A DNA stretch of 64,000 nt, taken from NCBI RefSeq assembly GCF_004365915.1, contig NZ_SODI01000001.1:1612001-1676000 (forward strand). The letters are read 5' to 3'. Position numbers and translations under genes: made by a program. Each line of letters begins with the position of its first letter. Position 1 is the stretch's first letter. Of this stretch, positions 1 to 59,686 are shown in pieces. Below the pieces are notes generated by a model. The model was given only the letters and a program-made list of their open reading frames with translations. It searched no databases and was not told the DNA's origin. This DNA is from Cryobacterium psychrophilum (lineage in GTDB: Bacteria > Actinomycetota > Actinomycetes > Actinomycetales > Microbacteriaceae).

Positions 1-27
1 AGGCACCCGTCCGCTCCGCACCACCCC

Positions 28-65
28 GACGATGCCCCGGTTGCCGCCGCAACCGGGGCATCGTC
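28..65. terminator. Intergenic hairpin, probable terminator
   Basis: A perfect 17-bp inverted repeat (28-44 and 49-65) with a 4-nt loop lies about 60 bp past the stop of the minus-strand DyP gene. It has no clear T-tract, so termination is inferred from position and stem strength. Confidence 0.6.
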
Positions 66-121
66 GCGTCCGGAGCCAACCAGTCGACGGCGGCAGGCCT
101 CGCTGAACCCCACGGGGCACG

Positions 122-13567: not shown

Positions 13568-13597
13568 AATTAGTGACCGACCAGTCGGTCACTAATT
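13568..13597. promoter_or_regulatory. TetR-type operator of the liv operon
   Basis: A perfect inverted repeat with 14-bp arms (core GTGACCGAC / GTCGGTCAC) and a 2-bp spacer lies upstream of livK. The GACCGACnnGTCGGTC core is typical of TetR/AcrR repressors that sense acyl-CoA or aromatic ligands in actinobacteria. No TetR gene is adjacent; the nearest, at 21037-21612, is 7.4 kb away. Confidence 0.85.
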
Positions 13598-37980: not shown

Positions 37981-39289
37981 TTGAAACGTGCAAGGTCGCA
38001 AACGGGTCTTCGTCGAAGGTGACCTTGCCGTTCTCTCTCGACTTCTACGGACAGACCTACGACGGACTGTACGTCAACAACAACGGCGACGTCTCCTTCG
38101 GCGCTCCGTTGAGCACATACACGCCCTTCGGACTCGCGTCTGCAAGCGTCCCTCTCATCGCTCCCTTCTTTGCTGATGTAGATACCGGAGGCAGCGGTTC
38201 GCAGCCTGTCCAGTACGGCTATGGGGAAACAACATACGAGGGACGCCCTGCCTTCTGCGTGAACTGGCTCAACGTTGGATACTTCTCCAACCATTTCGAC
38301 AAACTCAACTCCTTCCAGCTTCTCCTGGTCTCCCGGCAGGACAAGGCTGTTGGAGCATTCGACATTGTCTTCAACTACGACACCATCAATTGGGAAACCG
38401 GCGACGCCAGTGGAGGTAGCGAAGGACTTGGGGGCGTCTCCGCCCGCGTCGGTTTCACCGCCGGTACCGGCCAAGACGGAACTTTCACCGAGTTTGCCGG
38501 CTCCGGTACGCCCGGCGTCTTCCTGGACGGCGGGCCGACGCCATTGAACGTCGGCCAGCAAGATAGCTCCGTCAGGGGCAGATACATCTTCTCGGTTCGA
38601 AACGGAGGGACGCTGGTCAACGGATACGTCGCACTAGGCGACTCGTACCAGAGCGGCGAAGGAACCTTTGACTACATCGACGGGACGAACGTCGATGGGA
38701 TCAATCAGTGCCACCGCTCTGACTTCGCTTACCCGAGCCTCCTTGTGGATCAGGGCGTCGTCAAACTTGATCTGGACTTCCGGGCCTGTTCCGGCGCGAC
38801 CGTGAGTACGATGCTCATCCCAAGCAGCACGAGTGGTCCGCCGTGGAATGACGGCATCGCACAGGTAAACGCCCTCGACACTTCGACTCGACTGGTCACT
38901 GTCGGCATCATCGGCAACGACCTCGGCTTCGGCGATTTCATCACGAAGTGCGTGACATTGAGCCTGACGACAAGCAAGACATGCGAGAACGAGCTTGGCT
39001 CGAGCTTGAAAGGCCAGCTCACCTCCCTTGAATCAGGCGCGCTGAAGAAGTCCCTGATCGAGCTGTACCGGCTCATCCGGGCCAAAGCGCCAAACGCGCG
39101 TGTCGTCGTCGTGTCCTACCCACACTTCTTTCCCGAGTTCAACAAGGAGAAGAACTGCGGCCTCATCTACCGAACCAGCGATCAAACATGGATGAATTCT
39201 GCGGTAGACCGTGCGGACACTGCGATCGGAGTTGCGGCACGTAGCGCTGGATTCGAGTACGCGAATACGGAAGATGTCAACCTTTATGA
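37981..39289 (+). pseudogene. Nidogen-like plus SGNH-hydrolase secreted protein, broken at both ends
   Basis: From about 38019 the frame encodes a nidogen-type extracellular domain (TLPFSLDFYGQTY, LYVNNNGDVSFG, LIAPFFADVD) to about residue 195, then an SGNH/GDSL hydrolase with block I VALGDSYQSGEG (Ser209) and block III GIIGNDLGF. The expected signal peptide is absent. Instead a TTG-initiated start MKRARSQTGLRRR (37981, GGGGG upstream) ends at a TGA exactly where the nidogen frame begins, suggesting a deletion that fused the two out of frame. The 3' end is cut by the IS3 element near 39290, losing the DxxH block V. Probably inactive. Confidence 0.75.
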
Positions 39290-39480
39290 GTCAGTTTCTT
39301 TAGCCGGTCATTGAGTTCGTTCCTTCCTTTTCGGGTTCGTTGATCCACGTCGTCGTCGGGAATGTTGGCGGCTGCGGGAGCTTCCGAACGAAGCGTTCAG
39401 GGTGCGTGGCATAGGCGGTCCTGAGAACGCGGGCACGAGCGTGCTGGATGGCGGGTGCGCGGCCGTGGTGAACGTTGAAC
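39290..39480 (-). pseudogene. C-terminal piece of an IS3-family transposase (OrfB) and IS end
   Basis: On the minus strand: PFNVHHGRAPAIQHARARV, then RTAYATHPERFVRKLPQPP and TTTWINEP, ending at TAA 39300-39302. This is the end of an IS3-family OrfB. It continues exactly the fragment at 45575-46016; the IS21 element lies between them. Sequence starting TGAGTCAGTTTC at about 39289 is probably the IS3 terminal repeat and marks the cut in the SGNH gene. Confidence 0.85.
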
Positions 39481-39485
39481 GGGGT

Positions 39486-39531
39486 TGGCGAGTAGCGCTT
39501 GGTGGTAGCGGCAGTCCGGCGAGTTGGTAGC
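39486..39531. repeat. IS21 left terminal inverted repeat
   Basis: 46 bp matching the complement of 45524-45569 with two mismatches. Contains TGGTAGCG and GAGTTGGTAGC, internal repeats of the type recognised by IstA. Confidence 0.92.
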
Positions 39532-39630
39532 ACGTTTCCGGGAACACGGTAGCGCCGCCGGGCGGTGTACTGCTCTGCTGTGGAAGGACAACGCATACGG
39601 CGTTGTCGTTTCATTGCTAAGGGCGGGTTC

Positions 39631-40374
39631 ATGGCGGACTATCGAAAAATATTGGGACTGTTGCTGGAAGGGCGCAGTTACCGCGAGGTTGTCGAGATCG
39701 CGGGGTGCTCGCATCGCGACGTGGCCCGGGTCCGGCAGGAGGTCCAGGAGCGGGGTCTGACCTCGGCGGTCGCGATCACCGACGCTGACGTCGCGGAATG
39801 GTTCCCGGACGGGCGCCGGAAAGTGTCGGAAGAGTACGACCAGCCCGACCTCTCGCGGGTGCTGGCCTCGATGAAAGCGAACCGGCACTTCACGTTGCTG
39901 TTGGCCTGGCGCCGATACGTCGACACCAAAGACGCGGGAAAGAAGTACGGGTATTCGCAGTTCTGCGCCCTGTTCACCGACTACCTCCGCAGCCACGATC
40001 TGGTGGCGGTACTCCGCCACGAGCCGGGCCGGGCGATGCTGGTGGACTGGGCCGGCGACACGATGGATGTCGTCGACACCATCACCGGCGAGGTGGTCCG
40101 GGCAATCTTGTTCGTCGCGGTGCTGCCATTCTCGGGGCTGATGTTCTGCCGCGCCTACGCGGACATGAAGTCCCCGGCCTGGCTCGACGCCCACGTTCAA
40201 GCGTTCGCGTTCTTCGGCGGCGTGACGCAGATTATCGTGCCGGACAACCCGACGACCTCCACGCACCAAACTCATAAGGGCGACGCGGAGCGGGTCGTGA
40301 ACGCCCGATATCAGCAGCTCGCAGACCATTACCAGACTGCAATTGTCCCGGCCAGAGTGAAAAAACCGCGCGAC
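39631..40374 (+). pseudogene. istA: istA, N-terminal part (interrupted by the RIT element)
   Basis: 248 codons from ATG 39631. Helix-turn-helix YREVVEIAGCSHRDVARVRQEV, then the first two DDE residues: Asp in LVDWAGDTMDVVD and Asp in IIVPDNPTT. It stops being istA at KKPRD (40374), immediately before the conserved DKASAE segment that carries the catalytic Glu, which lies on the second part. Precise loss of 40375-43849 would restore a 531-residue IstA. Confidence 0.93.
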
Positions 40375-40456
40375 TATCCCGAGGATTTTGTTATCCCGAG
40401 TTCTGGCCGTGAGGCCTGTGCGTTGGCGGCCTGAGCGACCATTTCCTCGGGATAAT
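40369..40456. repeat. RIT left terminal inverted repeat
   Basis: 88 bp, 79 of which match the complement of 43734-43821. The outer 32 bp and inner 22-bp and 16-bp blocks are perfect. Contains three TTATCCCGA-like boxes (at 40375, 40391 and, inverted, 40446). Confidence 0.9.
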
Positions 40457-41475
40457 CATTTCAGGCCAGCGAGTTGGAGGATGAGATCGTCGCCTCCCGT
40501 CCAAAGCGGTGCGAGCTCGGGGTTGGCGCTGCCGGCTTTCTGGATCGCTTGACGCACCATCTCGTTATCCGCTGACGCGTAGATACTCGTGGTCGCGATG
40601 TTGGCGTGGCCGAGGAACTCCTTGATATGGGGAAGAGGAACCCCGGCGCGCAGCATCTGCATCGCGCGGGCGTGCCGCAGCTGGTGGGCATGGATCTTCT
40701 CCGGGACCTCCGGACATTCCTGTTGTGCGATCGCGGCGTGTTTGTTGAGCAGGTAGGTGATGTTGTCCTGGCTCATCTGCTGTCGGTGGCCCGCCCGGAT
40801 TGTGAAGAACAACGGGGAAGCTGCTTCGGGGGTGCCGGGATGGAACTCGGCCAGATACTGCTCCAGGTGGCGCGCAGTTTTATCCATCAGGGGAACAGTT
40901 CTGATCTTGTGGCCTTTGCCGGTCAGCGTCACCCGGGCGGCGCCGACTGTGGTGTCGATATCGGCCGGAGTCAGATCCAGCATTTCCTGGATCCGTGCTG
41001 CGGCGTCAAACATGAGCAGGATTAGAGTCGTGTCTCGCCTGCCCCGGTTGGTGTTCTGTCCGGGCGCGCGGATCAACGCGTCGACGGCAGGCATACTCAA
41101 CCCATCCGGTGCCCGCGCGGGTATTCGGGCGGGTTTGACCTGTCGGACGCCTAACCAGATCGACACCAGCGCCGGATCCTCGCCAGCGCAATAGGACAGG
41201 AACGACTTGATCGCGGCAAGGCGTTGGTTCGCCGAGGACACGCTCAGATGCTGGGTGTCGAGCAGCCAGGTGAAAAAGGCGGTGATGGTGGCGCGGTCGA
41301 TCGCCTCGAAGCTGACCTCCGCGAGGGTGAGGTGCTGGGTTTCGCGCAGGAAGTCCAGCAGCGTGTTTAGCGCCGTTTTATAGGAGCGGATGGTGTGCGG
41401 GCTGAGCCGGCGGGCCCGCGGCAGATGGATAGTCAGCCATGCACGGACCAGGGCGAAGAACTCAACGGAGGCCAT
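40456..41475 (-). CDS. ritC: RIT tyrosine recombinase C
   Basis: 339 aa, third gene of the trio. SAM-like N-terminal core-binding domain (RAWLTIHLPRARRLSPHTIRSY) and catalytic domain with Arg in MFDAAARIQEMLDLTP, HAHQLRHARAMQML (HxLRH), LGHANIATTSIY with nucleophile Tyr. All catalytic residues appear present. Its start overlaps the ritB stop by 14 nt. The stop codon lies at the inner edge of the left inverted repeat. Confidence 0.92.
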   Translation of the reverse strand: MASVEFFALVRAWLTIHLPRARRLSPHTIRSYKTALNTLLDFLRETQHLTLAEVSFEAIDRATITAFFTWLLDTQHLSVSSANQRLAAIKSFLSYCAGEDPALVSIWLGVRQVKPARIPARAPDGLSMPAVDALIRAPGQNTNRGRRDTTLILLMFDAAARIQEMLDLTPADIDTTVGAARVTLTGKGHKIRTVPLMDKTARHLEQYLAEFHPGTPEAASPLFFTIRAGHRQQMSQDNITYLLNKHAAIAQQECPEVPEKIHAHQLRHARAMQMLRAGVPLPHIKEFLGHANIATTSIYASADNEMVRQAIQKAGSANPELAPLWTGGDDLILQLAGLK

Positions 41476-42478
41476 CGGGCGCCTCCGGCAGAGCGCCTTC
41501 GATGCCGGTGTTGGCGAGGCGGCGCAGATCAGGATGGAAATCCGCCGCGAGGTGGAAGTAGTACCAGGTGTCTTCGGTGTTGCTGTGTCCGAGGTGCAAA
41601 CTCAGATAGGGCACCAACGATTCCGGATCTTTCCCGGCGACCGTCCACCGGTTGATGTTCTCGACCACGTGGGCGTGACGGAGGTCATAAACGCGCGGCG
41701 GAGAACCCGGGCTGGACGCGATGTGCGGATCGGCGGCGCCTAACAGCTGCTGGAACCAATAGTCGATGGTGCAATGGCTATAGAAGTTTCCCGAACGGTT
41801 GGGGAAGAACGGCATCCGATCTGGATGGTGGGCGCTGATCGTGGCGTCATAGTTTTGGCAGTACTCGTGCAAATCCGGGGACAGGAACACGATGCGGTCC
41901 TTGTGGCCCTTGGACTGCCGAATGTTCACGGTGCCACGAAGCAGGTCGACGTCGTTGCGGTGCAGCGTGCGGGCTTCGCTGGGACGCAGTCCCAGACAGT
42001 AGACCATCCGGAAGATTACCGGGATGATCACTTCCCGCCTGCCGCCGAAGCTGGTGGCCTGGATGGTATCGGCGGCGTCGAAGAGGGCTCGCAGCTCCTC
42101 GTGGGTGAAGATGTGCGGGCGGTAACGGATTTGTTTTCCCGGGATTCCTGACGGGATGACGTAGGCGGTCATGCCGAGCCCATTCATGTGTTTGGCCAGT
42201 TGCCGGATCGGGCTCATCCGCCGCATCTGGCCGTTGACGTGTTCTGCGGGCCGGGCGACGGCCCAGGCCATCGCCATCTCCTTCGTTAACGCCACCTGGC
42301 CGGGAAAGTCCTCCGCACACATCTGGTCGAAACGATGCAGATGCCGCTCGGACTCCTCGTAGGGCAACCCGAGCGCGTGTTTGACCTCGAGCAGGGACCG
42401 CAATGGCTCGGCCAGACCGCTGTAAAAGCCGCTCATGATCGTGTCCCTCGAGGTGCAATGCCCGCGAAGTCCAGACAA
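41462..42478 (-). CDS. ritB: RIT tyrosine recombinase B
   Basis: 338 aa, middle gene. Catalytic domain with Arg in YCLGLRPSEARTLH, VYDLRHAHVVENI and SLHLGHSNTEDTWYYFHL carrying the nucleophile Tyr. Overlaps ritA by 46 nt and ritC by 14 nt, so all three are translationally linked and probably act as a hetero-complex. Confidence 0.92.
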   Translation of the reverse strand: MSGLRGHCTSRDTIMSGFYSGLAEPLRSLLEVKHALGLPYEESERHLHRFDQMCAEDFPGQVALTKEMAMAWAVARPAEHVNGQMRRMSPIRQLAKHMNGLGMTAYVIPSGIPGKQIRYRPHIFTHEELRALFDAADTIQATSFGGRREVIIPVIFRMVYCLGLRPSEARTLHRNDVDLLRGTVNIRQSKGHKDRIVFLSPDLHEYCQNYDATISAHHPDRMPFFPNRSGNFYSHCTIDYWFQQLLGAADPHIASSPGSPPRVYDLRHAHVVENINRWTVAGKDPESLVPYLSLHLGHSNTEDTWYYFHLAADFHPDLRRLANTGIEGALPEAPDGLR

Positions 42479-43677
42479 CAGGCCCGCATCCGCGTCTCAT
42501 CGGTGGACAGGTAGTGTTTCGCCGAGTCGATCGTCCGGTGCCCGAGCGCTCCGGAGATCACCGGTAGTAGCGTTCCGCCCTCGAGTAGCCGGGTGGCGAA
42601 CGAGGCTCGCAATACTCTGAACCCGCGGCCCGTGCCGTTCTGGGTGATGGTCCCGCTGCGGGCAAAGGCGCGTGAGGCCACCCAATACAAACTGTCACAT
42701 GGGCGAAGGCCGACGTAGGGAGCATGAGAGCGAAGGAACACATGATCGTCTTCACCACCAACCGGTCTGCCGTGCAGGAGATAGTCCGCGATCGCCTCAC
42801 CAACATCGGCAAGCAGCGGCAACGTCAACACCGCCCCCGTTTTGTGTTGGACGAGGGTGATCTTCGCCTGCGCCCAATCGATATCACGCAACCGCAAACC
42901 GGCGATGTCCACCGGCCGCAGGCCCGTCCTGGCGCCCAGCAGCAACAGCGCCCTGTCCCGCAGACCCATCGGCGTGGAGATATCCGTGGAGTTCACCAGC
43001 GCGTCGATTCCGTCGGCTGGGACAACTCCCACCGAGCGGACACGTCGCACCATCTGAGCTGGGATCGCGTGTGAGAGTCCGGTGACGCTGCCGGATTCTT
43101 CCAAGAATCGACACAGCACGCGCAGCGCCGACACCACCGTCCTCATACTCCCCGGCTGATACCGGCCGCCGAGGAACACCACCATCGCTGACACGTCCGA
43201 GACAGATATCGACTGGGCATCAGCCACTGCGCGTTCGGGCAACCACGCCAACGCGGTGCGGGACACCGTGGCATACAAACTCTGGGTCGCAACGGCCACC
43301 GACTGGCTCTGCAACCAGACCTCGAACTGTTCCTGGACGGGACGGAAGACAGCATTCAGCGCATCATTAGGATGAGCCTGGCGAGACAAACACCACTGGT
43401 AGGAGCCCGTCCGTGCCACCTCGGACAAGACCAGAACAGCCTTGCGAAGAAGCCTGTGTTTCCAGTCCTTGAACCGGCCAGCCCGGTGTTCCGCCGCAAT
43501 GAAGGCGACAAACGAGGCAACAGCCTCCTCGGAGAACTCCTCGATGCCGTCGCGGGAACAGAACCTCGCGAACTGGGACCAAGCCCACCGGTATTGCATG
43601 GTCGTCGACGGCGCATGTCCCAGCGGACCAATTGCCGCGTCAGCCTGCACGATCACATCGCTGATAGAAACACTCAT
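42433..43677 (-). CDS. ritA: RIT tyrosine recombinase A
   Basis: 414 aa, first gene of the trio. Catalytic domain: Arg in GARTGLRPVDIAGL, then GFRVLRASFATRLLEGG and GALGHRTIDSAKHYL with candidate nucleophile Tyr. In the HxxR box the usual His is replaced (FRVLR) and the second His (LRH) is Ala, so this subunit may have altered or structural activity, as one RIT member often diverges. The gene starts just inside the right inverted repeat. Confidence 0.92.
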   Translation of the reverse strand: MSVSISDVIVQADAAIGPLGHAPSTTMQYRWAWSQFARFCSRDGIEEFSEEAVASFVAFIAAEHRAGRFKDWKHRLLRKAVLVLSEVARTGSYQWCLSRQAHPNDALNAVFRPVQEQFEVWLQSQSVAVATQSLYATVSRTALAWLPERAVADAQSISVSDVSAMVVFLGGRYQPGSMRTVVSALRVLCRFLEESGSVTGLSHAIPAQMVRRVRSVGVVPADGIDALVNSTDISTPMGLRDRALLLLGARTGLRPVDIAGLRLRDIDWAQAKITLVQHKTGAVLTLPLLADVGEAIADYLLHGRPVGGEDDHVFLRSHAPYVGLRPCDSLYWVASRAFARSGTITQNGTGRGFRVLRASFATRLLEGGTLLPVISGALGHRTIDSAKHYLSTDETRMRACCLDFAGIAPRGTRS

Positions 43678-43733
43678 CTCTGGCTCACCTCCAGTGAAAA
43701 TCGATAGAGATGAGCCAGCGTAAACAGGCCGCG

Positions 43734-43821
43734 ATTATCCCGAGGAAATGGCCACTCAGGCCGCCAACGCACAGGCTCCGCGACTGAAACTCGGGATAAC
43801 AAAATCCTCGGGATAGTCGCG
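43734..43821. repeat. RIT right terminal inverted repeat
   Basis: 88 bp complementary to 40369-40456 (9 mismatches, 7 of them clustered in a 13-bp central patch). Boxes TTATCCCGA at 43735 and inverted at 43790 and 43808. Confidence 0.9.
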
Positions 43822-43849
43822 CTTATCCCGAATTCGGGATAAGCGCGAC
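43816..43849. repeat. 34-bp perfect palindrome at the right RIT junction
   Basis: GTCGCGC, then the palindrome TTATCCCGAATTCGGGATAA (43823-43842), then GCGCGAC. The outer 7-mers are the istA target in inverted and direct orientation. No counterpart exists at the left junction, so the element is asymmetric by 27 bp. Confidence 0.95.
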
Positions 43850-44701
43850 AAGGCATCAGCCGAGAATGCGGTGAATGTGGTCAACAAACGCGTCATCGGC
43901 TACCTCGAGGACGATGTCTTCACCACGCTGAGCGAGTTGAATGCTGCGATCCAGGAGCGGGTGCGGGTGCGGGAGATCAACCATGACATCCGCCGCGCCG
44001 ACGACACGACCCGGTGGGAGAGGTTCGACGCTGAGGAGCGGGAGCTGCTGGGCGCGTTGCCCGACGCCGGGTTCGAGGACGTCGAGTGGAAGGAGCTCAA
44101 GGCCGCCCGGAACTACCACGTCACCGCGGACACACAACGGTATTCCGTGCCCTTCGCTCTGGCGGGCAAGCTGCTGCGGGTGAGGCTGACGTCTTCCCGA
44201 GTGACGATTTTCGACGGACACGAGAGCATCTGCGAACACACTCGGCTGACGGGCCGCAAAGGCCAATACTCGACCCTGCCCGAACACGTCCCGCCGCAGC
44301 ACCGCAACATCGACGGGCTGTGGTCCAGGCGGTGGTTCACCGACCGGGCGCGCAGCTTTGGGCCGGCCACAGTCACGGTGATCGAGCAGATCCTCGACGG
44401 CCAGGTGATCGAGGCGCAGGGCTACCTGTCCTGCCAGAACATCCTCGACGGGCTCGGCAAGAACAACCGGGAACGGTTGGAGGCGGCCTGCCAGGAGCTC
44501 GTGAACCGCAGCGCCCACCCGACCTACTCCACCCTGAAACGTTTGATGGCGGCCATCGACAGCGACGCGAAGAAACCCCGGCCAGTCGTCCCGGCGGCCT
44601 CGACACGCAAACGCGTCAGCACCGTCGTTTTCCGCGACAGCATGCCAGACGTTTATGTTCGCGACGCCTCACACTACGCACGCGGCGAGGAGGGCAAGTG
44701 A
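43850..44701 (+). pseudogene. istA: istA, C-terminal part
   Basis: In frame with 39631-40374 if the RIT insertion is removed. Begins KASAENAVNVVNKRVIGYLE, supplying the catalytic Glu of the DDE triad, followed by the C-terminal IstA domain (VPFALAGKLLRVRL, LSCQNILDGLGK). A GTG at 43871 could start translation, but the catalytic core would be incomplete. The stop overlaps istB (TGATG). Confidence 0.93.
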
Positions 44702-45468
44702 TGTTCACCAGCGTCGATTACGACAAGTTCCGGGCCCTTCGCGTCACCCACGTTGCGACCCGGCTGGAGGAACTGATCCAGGACGAGGGCAACGACACCC
44801 TCACCCCCGAGCAGCTCTTCCTCACCGCCGTCGACGACGCGCTGGAGTCCCGGCGCATCAACAAGGTCGACAAACTCATCCGCCAGGCCACCTTCCCGAT
44901 CCCGGGCGCGACGGTTGCCGAGGTCGACTACCGCGAGGGGCGCGGGATCACACCGGTCAGAATGCGTCGCTATGCCGACCATGCCTGGCGGGCAGATCCG
45001 ACGAATCTGCTCATCATCTCGCCCACCGGAGGCGGGAAAACCTACCTCGCCTGCGCGCTGGCCATCGGCGCCTGCCAGAGCGAGCACTCGGTTCTTTACT
45101 TCCGGATGGACGACCTCGCCCGACGGCTCATCATCGCCCGCGGCGACGGCATCGCCCACCAAAAGCTATTGAACGAGCTCTCCAACATCGACCTGCTCAT
45201 CATCGACGATTTCCTCACCGTCGGCATCGACAGCGACGCCGCCAGCGACCTGTTCGCGATCCTCGCGAACCGCGAACACCGGCTCCCGACAATGATCGCC
45301 TCGCAAACCGGACCCGCGCACTGGGTTGCCGAGCTGCCTGACCGGGTCGCAGCGGACTCGATCGTGAACCGCCTCGCCAACAACGCCCGAATCATCAACC
45401 TCGGCCAGATCGACATGCGCAGGCACCGCAACGACCAAGCCCGCGCCCACGAGACCTACTGGGAATAA
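44701..45468 (+). CDS. istB: IstB, IS21 transposition helper ATPase
   Basis: 255 aa from ATG 44701, which overlaps the istA stop. AAA+ motifs: Walker A SPTGGGKTYLACAL (about 105-118), Walker B LLIIDDF (about 163-169), sensor-like MIASQTG. IstB assembles on target DNA and activates IstA. The gene itself is intact, but its partner IstA is split, so the IS cannot move by itself unless a second copy supplies IstA. Confidence 0.94.
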   Translation: MFTSVDYDKFRALRVTHVATRLEELIQDEGNDTLTPEQLFLTAVDDALESRRINKVDKLIRQATFPIPGATVAEVDYREGRGITPVRMRRYADHAWRADPTNLLIISPTGGGKTYLACALAIGACQSEHSVLYFRMDDLARRLIIARGDGIAHQKLLNELSNIDLLIIDDFLTVGIDSDAASDLFAILANREHRLPTMIASQTGPAHWVAELPDRVAADSIVNRLANNARIINLGQIDMRRHRNDQARAHETYWE

Positions 45469-45523
45469 CACCGGAGGCGGCCCGGGCAACCCGACCGGGC
45501 CGCTACCACCTCGTCAGAACTGC

Positions 45524-45569
45524 GCTACCAACTCGCCGGACTGGCGCTACCATCAAGCGCTACTCGCCA
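45524..45569. repeat. IS21 right terminal inverted repeat
   Basis: Complement of 39486-39531 with two mismatches; ends CTCGCCA before the duplicated GGGGT. Confidence 0.92.
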
Positions 45570-45574
45570 GGGGT

Positions 45575-46016
45575 GTGCATTCCAATGCCGGAGTGGCGAT
45601 GTTCACCGTTGTACCAGTCGTAGAATTCGGTGCAGAATGAGCGTGCCTCGGCGAGGCTGTGGAACCGGTCTGGGAACTCGGGCCGGTACTTCAGAATTTT
45701 GAAATGCGACTCCGAAAATGGATTGTCATTACTCGTATGCGGGCGGGAGTGCGACTTGGTCACGCCCAGGTCGGCAAGCAGAAACGCGACGGGTTTCGAC
45801 GCCATCGAGGACCCGTTATCGGAGTGGATCGTCAGCTGATCACGGCGAATGTTCTGCTTCTCGATCGTGTCGAGCAGGAGCCGCTCGGCCAGATCGGCGG
45901 ACTCCCGGGTGGCGACCATCCACCCGACGACGTACCGCGAGTAAATGTCGATAATCGTATACAAGTAGAAGTACGACCATGTGGCCGGACCCTTGAGCTT
46001 CGAGATGTCCCACGAC
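45575..46016 (-). pseudogene. Central piece of an IS3-family transposase (OrfB)
   Basis: On the minus strand from the palindrome edge: KSWDISKLKGPATW, YTIIDIYSRYVVGW (first DDE Asp), LTIHSDNGSSM (second Asp), HTSNDNPFSESHFK (Glu), then YDWYNGEHRHSGIGMHTP, where IS21 interrupts. The DDE core is complete but the N-terminal HTH part and OrfA are missing upstream of 46016; the C terminus lies at 39290-39480. Confidence 0.9.
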
Positions 46017-46042
46017 TTATGCCGACGTCGGCATAAGTCGTG
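46011..46042. repeat. 32-bp perfect palindrome, near twin of the RIT palindrome
   Basis: CACGAC, then TTATGCCGACGTCGGCATAA (46017-46036), then GTCGTG. The central 20 bp differs from the RIT palindrome at 43823-43842 only at position 5 of each arm and the central two bases, and as there the 6-7 bp on either side are inverted copies of one another. It marks the point where the IS3 gene is cut off. Confidence 0.92.
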
Positions 46043-46082
46043 AGACCTCACCGAGCGCACGGAACGCTCGCAACTCGAGGCC

Positions 46083-46295
46083 ATGCGCGAACTGATCGCC
46101 AGCCTGCGGGAGCGCCGCCGCCTCACCATCAACGTGTCCATCGAAGCAGAGCTCACCCCCGCCAGCGAAGTCACCACCGAACCCCCGATCTGGGACACCT
46201 CCCAAGAACAACTCGCCGAGGCAAACCGTCGCATAAAACAGCTCAGCACCTACCTCGCCGATACGGGGTGGGACATCGAAGGCTGGGCCCAGTAA
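46083..46295 (+). CDS. Small hypothetical protein, probably the C-terminal remnant of a larger gene
   Basis: 70 aa from ATG 46083; the frame is open back to the palindrome (preceding residues DLTERTERSQLEA). Predicted helical and charged (RELIASLRERRRLT, EEQLAEANRRIKQLSTYLAD), ending GWAQ. The gene this end belonged to is not recognised. Since it starts at the palindrome scar it may be truncated. 46296-46368 holds no gene. Confidence 0.4.
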   Translation: MRELIASLRERRRLTINVSIEAELTPASEVTTEPPIWDTSQEQLAEANRRIKQLSTYLADTGWDIEGWAQ

Positions 46296-46368
46296 CCACT
46301 GGAATCAAGCCAAAGCATTGTCGCGAGGGAGCCGCAGAGAACTGGCCCGCCAGTTGTAATCTGTGCGC

Positions 46369-46507: not shown

Positions 46508-47611
46508 ATGGGAAGCATCGAGTCTTACGCCACGACGAGCGGCAAGCGCTATCGAGTGATTTATCGGCGTCCCGATCATCTGCAGACTCAGAAGCGCGGG
46601 TTCCGAACGAAGAGAGACGCCGAGCTCTACCTGTCGGCCATAGAGATCAAGAAGGCTACCGGTGAATACATCGATGCCACCGCCTCGAAGGCCCTAATCG
46701 CCGTGTTGGGTGCTGACTGGTTGGCATCTCAGACACACCTCAAGCCGTCTTCACTTCACCCCGTTGAGGTTGCGTGGAGGCGATACGTCCTTCCGACCTG
46801 GGGCACCTACAAGGTCGGCCAGATTCGCCACAGCGACGTGCAGATTTGGATCTCGCAGCTGGTTGCGGGCCGCAGCGCGACGACCGTTTTGCGGATCTAT
46901 GGTGTGCTGGCCGCGATCCTTGATGTTGCGGTGAAGGATCGGCGCATTCCCTCGAATCCTGCGCGGGGAGTGACCCTGCCGCGTAAGACGAAGGGCCAGC
47001 ACGCATACCTGTCGCACAGACAGGTCGCGCTGCTCGCACAAAACTCCCGTAAGCACTCGACTCTCGTTCTCGCCTTGGCCTATACCGGGTTGCGCTCGGG
47101 TGAAGCGACCGCGTTGCGAATTCGCGACGTGGACACGGTGCGACGGCGTATTCAGGTGCACGAAAATGCGGTGAGCGTTAGTGGGACGATCCACGTCGGC
47201 ACACCCAAGACGCATCAAGCGCGCGCGGTCCCCTATCCAACGTTTCTCAATCCGCTCTTCGTCGAACTCATGAAAGACTCGACTGGGGGCACTCGTGGTC
47301 GCGGCGAGCTGCTTTTTGGAAGTGGCCTCGACTACGTCCGCAGCCCCGATTCCCGGCGCGGTTGGTTTGTGTCGGCGGTGCGCAAATCGCAGACTGCCGA
47401 CAGCACGTTTCCGCGAATGACTTTGCACGATCTACGCCACACCGCAGCGAGCCTGGCCATCTCCGCTGGCGCCAATGTGAAAGCCATCCAACGAATGCTT
47501 GGCCACGCGTCGGCAGCCATGACTCTCGACACCTACGCCGATCTTTTCGACGACGATCTCGACTCAGTGGCTGACGCGCTCGACGACGCTCGAACTCTCA
47601 GCATCGACTGA
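46508..47611 (+). CDS. int: Tyrosine integrase of the genomic island
   Basis: 367 aa. N-terminal AP2-like arm-binding domain (SYATTSGKRYRVIYRRPDHLQTQKRG), core-binding domain (about 65-150), catalytic domain with Arg in LAYTGLRSGEATALR, HDLRHTAASLAI and LGHASAAMTLDTYADLF (Tyr nucleophile). It lies 0.76 kb from tRNA-Ser, the usual place for an integrase, and is the likely user of the 38-bp att core and the TGTTGCCA arm repeats. Appears intact. Confidence 0.95.
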   Translation: MGSIESYATTSGKRYRVIYRRPDHLQTQKRGFRTKRDAELYLSAIEIKKATGEYIDATASKALIAVLGADWLASQTHLKPSSLHPVEVAWRRYVLPTWGTYKVGQIRHSDVQIWISQLVAGRSATTVLRIYGVLAAILDVAVKDRRIPSNPARGVTLPRKTKGQHAYLSHRQVALLAQNSRKHSTLVLALAYTGLRSGEATALRIRDVDTVRRRIQVHENAVSVSGTIHVGTPKTHQARAVPYPTFLNPLFVELMKDSTGGTRGRGELLFGSGLDYVRSPDSRRGWFVSAVRKSQTADSTFPRMTLHDLRHTAASLAISAGANVKAIQRMLGHASAAMTLDTYADLFDDDLDSVADALDDARTLSID

Positions 47612-48542: not shown

Positions 48543-49328
48543 GTGAGGATTCTGAGTCCCAGCATTCGTGCTTTCATCAGTGCGGTCGGCATCGGCTTCG
48601 CCGCAGCACTGCAGCCCAGGGGCTTTCGCGCGCGACTGGCGATCAGCGCTGCGGAGCTCAACGAGACACTTCCGGTGCACTCACTCTGGTGGCGTGACCA
48701 CGCCAAAGAAGACGGCGAGCTGCTCTACGTGGCGGTCGGCGACAGCGCGGCGCAGGGAATCGGCGCGAGCCGACCGAACAACAGCTACGTGGGCATCCTC
48801 GCCGACCATGTGCGGGCGCGCACGGGCCGCACGGTGCGCGTGATCAACCTCAGCGTGTCGGGTGCCACGGTCGAGCTAGCCGTGCGCGACCAGCTGCCCC
48901 GCTTCGCCGCCCTCTCCCCCGACCTCGTGACCGTCGCCATCGGCGCCAACGACATCGCCCAGTGGAATGCCGTGCTCTTCGAAGCGGGCATTCGTCGCGT
49001 CTTCGAGGTGCTTCCAAGCCACGCGCTCGTGGCCGAACTGCCGTGCTTTCACCTGCCATCAGCCGAACGCAAGGTAGCCGTGGCCAACCGCATCGTGCGC
49101 GACGTCGCCGCCGAACGGGGCCTCACCGTGGTGCCGTTGCACGCCGCAACCAAGCGCCCGGGGCTGCGCAGCGTCGCGACACATGTGGCGAAAGACCTCT
49201 TTCACCCCAATGATCTCGGGTACCGCGTGTGGGCCGATGCCTTTCTCCCCTCCCTCACCGCCCGGGTCGCCCGCCGTTTCGCCATGACCAATGACCCCGC
49301 GCCCGAGAGTGTCGGAGGCCGCGGCTAG
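48543..49328 (+). CDS. SGNH/GDSL-family hydrolase
   Basis: 261 aa, GTG start. Block I VAVGDSAAQGIGAS (Ser near residue 64), block III TVAIGANDIAQWN, block V HPNDLGYRVWAD (Asp-x-x-His type replaced by FHPND) complete an SGNH esterase. An N-terminal hydrophobic stretch may anchor or export it. Likely acyl-esterase or lipase activity. radA begins 10 nt downstream. Confidence 0.92.
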   Translation: MRILSPSIRAFISAVGIGFAAALQPRGFRARLAISAAELNETLPVHSLWWRDHAKEDGELLYVAVGDSAAQGIGASRPNNSYVGILADHVRARTGRTVRVINLSVSGATVELAVRDQLPRFAALSPDLVTVAIGANDIAQWNAVLFEAGIRRVFEVLPSHALVAELPCFHLPSAERKVAVANRIVRDVAAERGLTVVPLHAATKRPGLRSVATHVAKDLFHPNDLGYRVWADAFLPSLTARVARRFAMTNDPAPESVGGRG

Positions 49329-59650: not shown

Positions 59651-59686
59651 CGAAGGGCCCGACGGAGTATTCCGTCGGGCCCTTCG
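59651..59686. terminator. Bidirectional terminator between convergent genes
   Basis: A perfect 16-bp stem (CGAAGGGCCCGACGGA and complement) with loop GTAT between the stops of the HNH gene and clpC. Symmetric, so it can serve both strands. Confidence 0.9.

Follow-up and report, generated by a model that had tools for sequence, protein, structure and literature searches.

A RIT element in the istA gene of an IS21 from Cryobacterium psychrophilum: insertion site, cores and a proposed mode of targeting

What brings a recombinase trio (RIT) element into the middle of a transposase gene is the question raised by a locus of Cryobacterium psychrophilum. The locus lies in a stretch of 64,000 nucleotides (contig NZ_SODI01000001.1, positions 1,612,001 to 1,676,000 of the forward strand, assembly GCF_004365915.1), which we call the window, and consists of four nested levels: an SGNH gene interrupted by an insertion sequence (IS) of the IS3 family, itself interrupted by an IS21 whose transposase gene, istA, is in turn split by a RIT. 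The original prediction, made from the letters of the window, had described these levels and held that they fix the order of events. The levels are real, each being matched to intact relatives or to a homologue; the order is discussed below.

We propose that the RIT uses site-specific recombination to enter at a 6-bp core in the istA codons adjoining the catalytic glutamate, thereby splitting the IS21 transposase, that it would do so from a circle that carries two cores, and that the IS21 and its RIT (IS21::RIT) would then have spread as a unit. We give this reading, which is drawn from sequence comparisons, a probability of about 0.78. In the following, L numbers designate the DNA stretches or loci that were compared and G numbers the genomes, G000 being the C. 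psychrophilum source genome.

The RIT and the istA codons that it splits

The features of the RIT are listed below in window coordinates, with the strand where one applies and the evidence in brackets.

40374-43842, - strand: RIT element between two outer cores (three PF00589 genes, terminal repeats, cores)
40368-40373, + strand: left 6-bp core, GCGCGA (sequence; empty-site comparison)
40368-40457: left terminal inverted repeat, a 90-bp arm that includes the left core (90% complementary to 43733-43822)
40456-41475, - strand: ritC-type tyrosine recombinase, 339 aa (PF00589; Xer-like NCBIfam matches below cut-off)
41462-42478, - strand: ritB-type tyrosine recombinase, 338 aa from a TTG (PF00589; the ritA stop shares bases with an internal ATG, at 42436: ATGA)
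42433-43677, - strand: ritA-type tyrosine recombinase, 414 aa (PF00589)
43733-43822: right terminal inverted repeat arm, including the inner core (complementary to the left arm)
43817-43822, - strand: inner core, inverted, reading GCGCGA on the - strand (sequence)
43823-43842: 20-bp palindrome P, TTATCCCGAATTCGGGATAA (palindrome search; at 75 loci of genome_contigs)
43843-43848, + strand: right (P-side) 6-bp core, GCGCGA (sequence; empty-site comparison)

RITs are recombinase trios of about 3.5 kb, with variation at the ends and an inverted repeat with an overlapping palindrome (PMC3414803; here and below, what is said of a cited paper concerns the accessible part of it). The window element shares with known RITs the trio of overlapping tyrosine recombinase genes, the length of about 3.5 kb and the inverted repeats with a palindrome at the ends. 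Its three adjacent genes lie in the order A-B-C, with an ATGA overlap between A and B and a 14-bp overlap between B and C, and its 3,475 bp include 90-bp terminal arms and a 34-bp perfect palindrome at 43816-43849. No RIT-specific NCBIfam match was obtained, the recombinase matches being Xer-like and below cut-off. The frame list has only three recombinase frames between the repeats, and not the four-gene operon with a small fourth gene that would assign the element to the strand-biased circularizing integrative elements (SEs) or to the GInts.

The IS21 that carries the RIT comprises the following features.

39486-45569, + strand: IS21-family element carrying the RIT, 6,084 bp (identical copy at G000:C1:905453-911537)
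39631-40373, + strand: N part of istA, 247 codons, stopping just short of the catalytic-Glu motif (NCBIfam NF033546; tblastn; structure alignment)
43850-44701, + strand: C part of istA, 283 codons and stop; the catalytic-Glu motif lies 5 residues past the split codon (PF22483)
44701-45468, + strand: istB, helper ATPase (PF01695, over cut-off; NF038214)

The host is an IS21 by its gene order, istA then istB, by its target repeats (GGGGT, and CTTCAC at the second copy) and by its inverted ends (69-bp arms, 83% complementary); the matches to NF033546 and NF038214 are below the curated cut-offs, istA being in two pieces and IstB scoring 161 vs 200. As had been predicted, istA regains 531 codons when 3475 bp are removed: 247 codons (39631-40373), one D codon and 283 codons (43850-44698). 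Four intact istA relatives in G000 have frames of 532 aa that align on both sides of the split codon, and in this empty site the istA flanks are exactly 6 bp apart. These relatives are 85-86% identical in DNA and, at the protein level, about 91% (istA) and 92.5% (IstB) identical.

The split aligns to residues 227-228 of the IS5376 IstA structure. The catalytic residues of IstA are D124, D187 and E233, and a wedge loop (225-228) lies beside the glutamate (PMC10122671). The RIT thus parts the two catalytic aspartates from the catalytic glutamate.

A second IS21::RIT in G000, at C1:905453-911537, is 100% identical to that of the window over 6,084 bp and is flanked by 6-bp repeats of its own, CTTCAC, which indicates that IS21 and RIT have travelled together on at least one occasion. 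Nesting alone therefore gives no date for the entry of the RIT, and the claim of a fixed order does not hold. Judging from these sequences, the RIT may already have been in the IS21 when the latter entered the window IS3, and its own entry may have taken place here, at 905 kb or at a third place. In the spread that we propose, IstA would presumably be supplied in trans by the four intact relatives of G000. The identical pair could alternatively result from homologous recombination or from an error of the assembly, the identity being complete; this is highly unlikely, considering that the two copies have separate flanking repeats (GGGGT, CTTCAC) in unrelated DNA. Plain nesting in the order first predicted, with the RIT in istA by chance, would explain the layers and the GGGGT repeat, but neither the identical IS21::RIT elsewhere nor the fact that the same codon is struck in diverse istA genes, and we regard it as very unlikely.

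This latter fact comes from stretches retrieved from same-genus genomes and from G000 itself. The same istA codon is broken in all 11 loci that have a window-type RIT and an istA flank (tblastn), some of which are half-insertions at contig ends, possibly pairs (L055/L056, L059/L062). For six of these 11 insertions, the protein identity of the host IS21s is no more than 30-40%, and both RIT orientations occur. The contig L026 consists of a RIT alone.

A common site could be due to descent instead of targeting, if one ancient RIT had inserted in an IS21 ancestor. The IS21 and the RIT of G000 and G007 have indeed diverged to a similar extent, with about 82-84% identity in DNA. However, G007 contains two RITs that are identical over 3,455 bp and sit in two different istA types, in opposite orientation (L051, L052), and many intact istA genes carry no RIT, which makes a single ancient insertion extremely unlikely.

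Cores, palindrome and the proposed circle

Read inward, a RIT end consists of a 6-bp core and then (C/T)TATNCCGA; one of the two ends is extended by the 20-bp palindrome, beyond which comes another core, the outer one. A 7-bp core, GCGCGAC, was considered and dropped: the seventh base differs between the target side and the element side, so that the core is 6 bp long.

An exact scan of genome_contigs for palindrome P returned 75 stretches with 76 palindromes (L083, L096, L118, L135, L141 and L143 come from genomes already sampled). The carriers include many Lachnospiraceae and other Clostridia, and also actinobacteria and others. According to the motif classes, one side of the palindrome is a RIT end in 56 of the 76 cases; in the 29 of these with a recognised rit frame, the palindrome adjoins ritA 16 times and ritC 13 times. 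L089 bears the palindrome at both ends.

In the mechanism that we propose, the circular RIT would have, in a row, one end, core 1 in inverted orientation, the palindrome, core 2 and the other end. This would create two overlapping back-to-back crossover sites, each with inverted 10-bp arms around a 6-bp spacer. Either site could be used, and the choice would set the orientation of the insertion, the palindrome ending up on one constant side of the target whichever site is used. One flank would keep the host's own core and the other would receive the carried one, while the unused core would be retained and would document a previous host. If this is true, two cores let one element enter two types of target, in opposite orientations.

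The cores of the G007 pair are exchanged: L051 has GCGCGA as its outer core and CAAAGA as its inner core, and L052 has CAAAGA as outer and GCGCGA as inner. An exact swap is likewise seen in L072/L110 and, in the second RIT family described below, in L163/L164; as far as they are shown, the ends of these two are alike, and their bodies run past the contig ends. Both ends were located in 16 distinct copies, 6 of which have unlike outer cores on the left and on the right (L053, L102, L103, L127, L133, L137). Comparison of L053 with the empty site of L191, to which it is 96.5% identical, shows that the left core is native and that the right core is not.

Among ordered pairs of copies from the same genome, 17 of 42 show an inner core that is the same as the partner's outer core, vs 62 of 803 pairs between genomes of the same target class (59 palindrome instances, of which only copies whose own cores differ were counted, 38 copies). 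None of 5,000 shuffles of the genome labels within target class reached 17 matches, a figure to be taken as a guide and not as a probability, since the test treats copies as independent and those of one genome are related. It may be that the inner core is kept alike by palindrome-driven gene conversion or by replication slippage, and is then not the record of a host: it equals the outer core of its own copy in 21 of the 59 instances and is one base off in 16. The exact swaps in three pairs and the matches to other copies of the same genome argue against this explanation, which we consider rather improbable.

The use of both sites on two targets would yield a fusion with the palindrome only and a RIT between two left halves; if this is true, it rearranges the chromosome by joining two target halves. 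Fusions of the first kind are seen in L165, L167, L074, L096, L108 and, in the window, at 46017-46036. The window junction, which is similar to those of L165 and L167, involves the palindrome of a second RIT family.

46017-46036: 20-bp palindrome of the second RIT family, TTATGCCGACGTCGGCATAA (no recombinase genes remaining)
46011-46016 (- strand) and 46037-46042 (+ strand): GTCGTG cores flanking TTATGCCGACGTCGGCATAA (sequence)
46037-46300, + strand: right half of an unrelated gene, joined to the IS3 at the palindrome (gene whole in G009, L159)

The original prediction had missed this junction, at which the IS3 is cut at 46016 and fused to the unrelated gene. In the whole gene of G009 (L159) the native six bases are GTGGCG, vs GTCGTG in the window; its 204-aa frame has no Pfam match. 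The same palindrome also ends a second-family RIT of G000 (C1:3508.2-3511.6 kb), inside another IS3 orfB and at the same W|D codons. One IS3 orfB region (L021 2194-9236, G000:C1 about 3508.2-3515.2 kb) has a pair of distinct RITs, one at the first-Asp motif and the other close to the third catalytic residue. This other one, a third RIT, at C1:3511.9-3515.2 kb, is enclosed by two left halves of orfB in inverted orientation, which is the second predicted arrangement. A target rule with a core record would explain head-to-head fusions of transposase halves that otherwise resemble assembly errors.

Targets in other genomes and on plasmids

The other side of the palindrome is readable in 55 of the 56 instances with a RIT end. 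By motif, these targets are 28 GC|AAG sites, 14 istA-motif sites, three at the second Asp of IS3, one at the second Asp of IS30, and nine others. Among the istA-motif sites, 12 of 14 were confirmed by tblastn; L106 was not confirmed and L143 is not istA (it is the G021 exception mentioned below). In each of three loci with IS3 sites, the site starts at position 281 of that family's model; in three loci with IS30 sites, the start is at position 196 of the corresponding model. The nine other targets are as follows.

L124: IS3, near the third catalytic residue (own reading)
L129, L134: IS66 TnpB
L086: C5 DNA methylase, at the PCQ-P motif (own reading)
L114: group II intron (Rfam RF01998); L127: the same by resemblance only, no Rfam hit
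L142: istA-like, interrupted by the contig end
L078, L116: without gene assignment

Seven of the 28 GC|AAG loci were tested with Pfam, and all seven have a relaxase or NikA/MobC gene nearby; in several of the remaining 21 no relaxase is seen by eye, so the assignment of GC|AAG sites to origin-of-transfer regions is tentative. The 20 palindromes without a RIT end comprise three IS3/IS30 fusions (L074, L108 and, with a stop, L100), one istA/istA fusion (L096), one case with GC|AAG on both sides, five with GC|AAG and another sequence, nine with other sequences on both sides, which may include chance matches, and one at a contig end.

For a sample that does not depend on the palindrome, RitB was used; it matched 322 plasmid records, and 16 of the 60 listed were picked for diversity. 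The RIT is inside a recognisable gene in 10 of the 16 plasmids; in the other six (L176-L180, L188) the target gene was not resolved.

L175, L184, L186, L187: ArdC-type metallopeptidase (four)
L182, L183, L185: IS66 transposase (three)
L181: IstB (one)
L174: YhcG nuclease (one)
L189: AAA_34 protein (one)

The break lies at or beside a catalytic motif in 8 of these 10 genes (positions from translations), the motifs being what we take to be HEXXH, IS66 DDE, Walker B and PDDEXK; in L182 and L189 it lies beyond the domain.

Another hypothesis is that the recombinases merely prefer a short DNA word, the 6-bp spacer followed by approximately CAAG, found at the catalytic codons of multicopy genes. Of the 55 P-family targets, 38 have YAAG after the core, and some of these are non-coding sites close to mobilisation genes, which suggests that part of the catalytic-motif rule may be DNA preference alone. 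On the contrary, RITs with other palindromes strike other motifs (the first Asp of IS3, the metalloprotease site of ArdC, Walker B of IstB, IS66), and a four-base word is far too common to account for one site per gene. We find this hypothesis possible, if doubtful.

The shared YAAG and the relatedness of the shuffled copies are not the only points that weigh against entry at catalytic codons from a two-core circle. In L060 and L061, which represent one RIT copy of G021, the RIT is flanked by a gene other than istA, which we read, without a family search, as a putative transporter binding-protein gene. The gene fused at 46037 is not a transposase site either, and its left half was not found in G000 except for a 35-bp match, so that the partner product of the fusion is missing. 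A native left core is documented by a single case, L053. None of the 76 palindromes of genome_contigs has RIT ends on both sides, and a strict pattern for the circle junction gave no match in viral_contigs; the circle, and with it the order of strand exchange, thus remains inferred, as does the mobilisation of IS21::RIT by IstA in trans. As for RITs as a class, we see an even chance that they are parasites of mobile elements that home on catalytic-motif codons or mobilisation regions, with the two cores of their circle as an address book.

Inteins and homing introns also occupy conserved active-site codons, but they are spliced out, and nothing suggests splicing of the RIT insertions described here. 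Tn554 has two recombinases plus TnpC, and radC as a fixed target, unlike the RIT. Its likenesses are tyrosine recombinases, a 6-bp footprint and the fixed character of the target (PMC10214605). SEs share tyrosine recombinases, a 6-bp core and a donor flank carried to one side, and one of them entered insJ of IS3; they differ by four different genes, one carried core and, in what is described of them, no central palindrome (PMC10214605). GInts share three recombinase-type genes and site specificity, and their excision yields att variants able to drive target specificity, but they have an essential fourth gene and insert near ssb and at gene ends, not at active-site codons (PMC5385486).

Single RIT insertions have already been reported in a Tn6049-like transposase gene (PMC3414803) and in IS66 tnpA and radC (PMC2864759), and, widespread as RITs are, their movement and target specificity are listed as untested (PMC10214605). 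The accessible parts of the RIT accounts (PMC3414803, PMC2864759) state no target rule, variable cores or two-core palindrome. Our literature search, from which the bulk of the subscription journals and the 2013 paper of Ricker et al. were absent, found no paper stating an active-site rule or a two-core palindrome. RITs and their single insertions in transposase genes are known; the target rule and the core record were not found stated in the papers searched. Together they make the movement and targeting of RITs testable. The target rule would account for RITs turning up within transposase genes, and RIT targeting points to a natural brake on insertion sequences; the core record would be a sequence-readable trace of the past sites of an element.

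Three RIT loci have an unusual layout or origin. In L057 (G018:C25, 6509-17673), ritA is itself interrupted, by other DNA of about 10 kb. In L068 (plasmid NZ_CP097321.1), genes of the ritB and ritC types are adjacent and one of the ritA type is about 5 kb off, with ATPase and integrase-core genes between. The palindrome-P RIT of L142 is on a short contig binned as Micrarchaeota, which may be a binning error.

The outer layers of the locus

The layers around the IS21 are the following.

38019-39267, + strand: NIDO and SGNH/GDSL gene, cut short by the IS3 (Pfam PF06119, PF13472; L161 homologue)
39268-39485, - strand: outer part of the IS3 (orfB 3'), left border about 39268 (93.6% to the uninterrupted IS3 of L058)
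39481-39485: left GGGGT target repeat of the IS21 (L058 comparison, sequence read)
45570-45574: right GGGGT target repeat of the IS21 (L058 comparison, sequence read)
45570-46016, - strand: inner part of IS3 orfB, up to the first-Asp motif, W|D (96.9% to L058; PF00665; NF033516)

The SGNH gene is cut by the IS3, as had been proposed: the window protein matches the 1121-aa open frame of its L161 homologue only to residue 421, where the IS3 begins, and the matches to the homologue and to the IS3 abut at 39268. The IS3 is identified by an orfB with a DDE core (PF00665, PF13683), the match to NF033516 being below cut-off for an orfB that is a fragment; two complete ends and a target repeat are not found here, the right side being cut at 46016 within orfB. 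Of the limits first given for this IS3, the split of orfB stands, while homology starts at about 39268 and not 39290, and 46016 is a cut inside orfB and not the end of the IS3. The two halves rejoin once the IS21 and the GGGGT duplication are removed: the uninterrupted IS3 of the same-genus L058 matches 39268-39485 (93.6%) and 45570-46016 (96.9%), and the matched stretches overlap by 5 bp in L058. The search for uninterrupted relatives that had been suggested thus found both the IS3 (L058) and the IS21 istA (four copies in G000), in which the flanks meet without gap or gain, and each of the two split genes comes from a single parent. The IS21 and the IS3 have the gene content and the 5-6-bp repeats of their families, and both are here broken hosts.

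A second SGNH/GDSL gene (PF13472) is found at 48543-49328, 9 kb away from the truncated one. A tyrosine integrase (PF00589) lies at 46508-47611, downstream of the fused gene, in a region that is syntenic with G009 (L159) and is probably an integrated element. Other long perfect or near-perfect palindromes of the window (27-66, 13568-13597, 59651-59686) are not RIT-like and are perhaps terminators.

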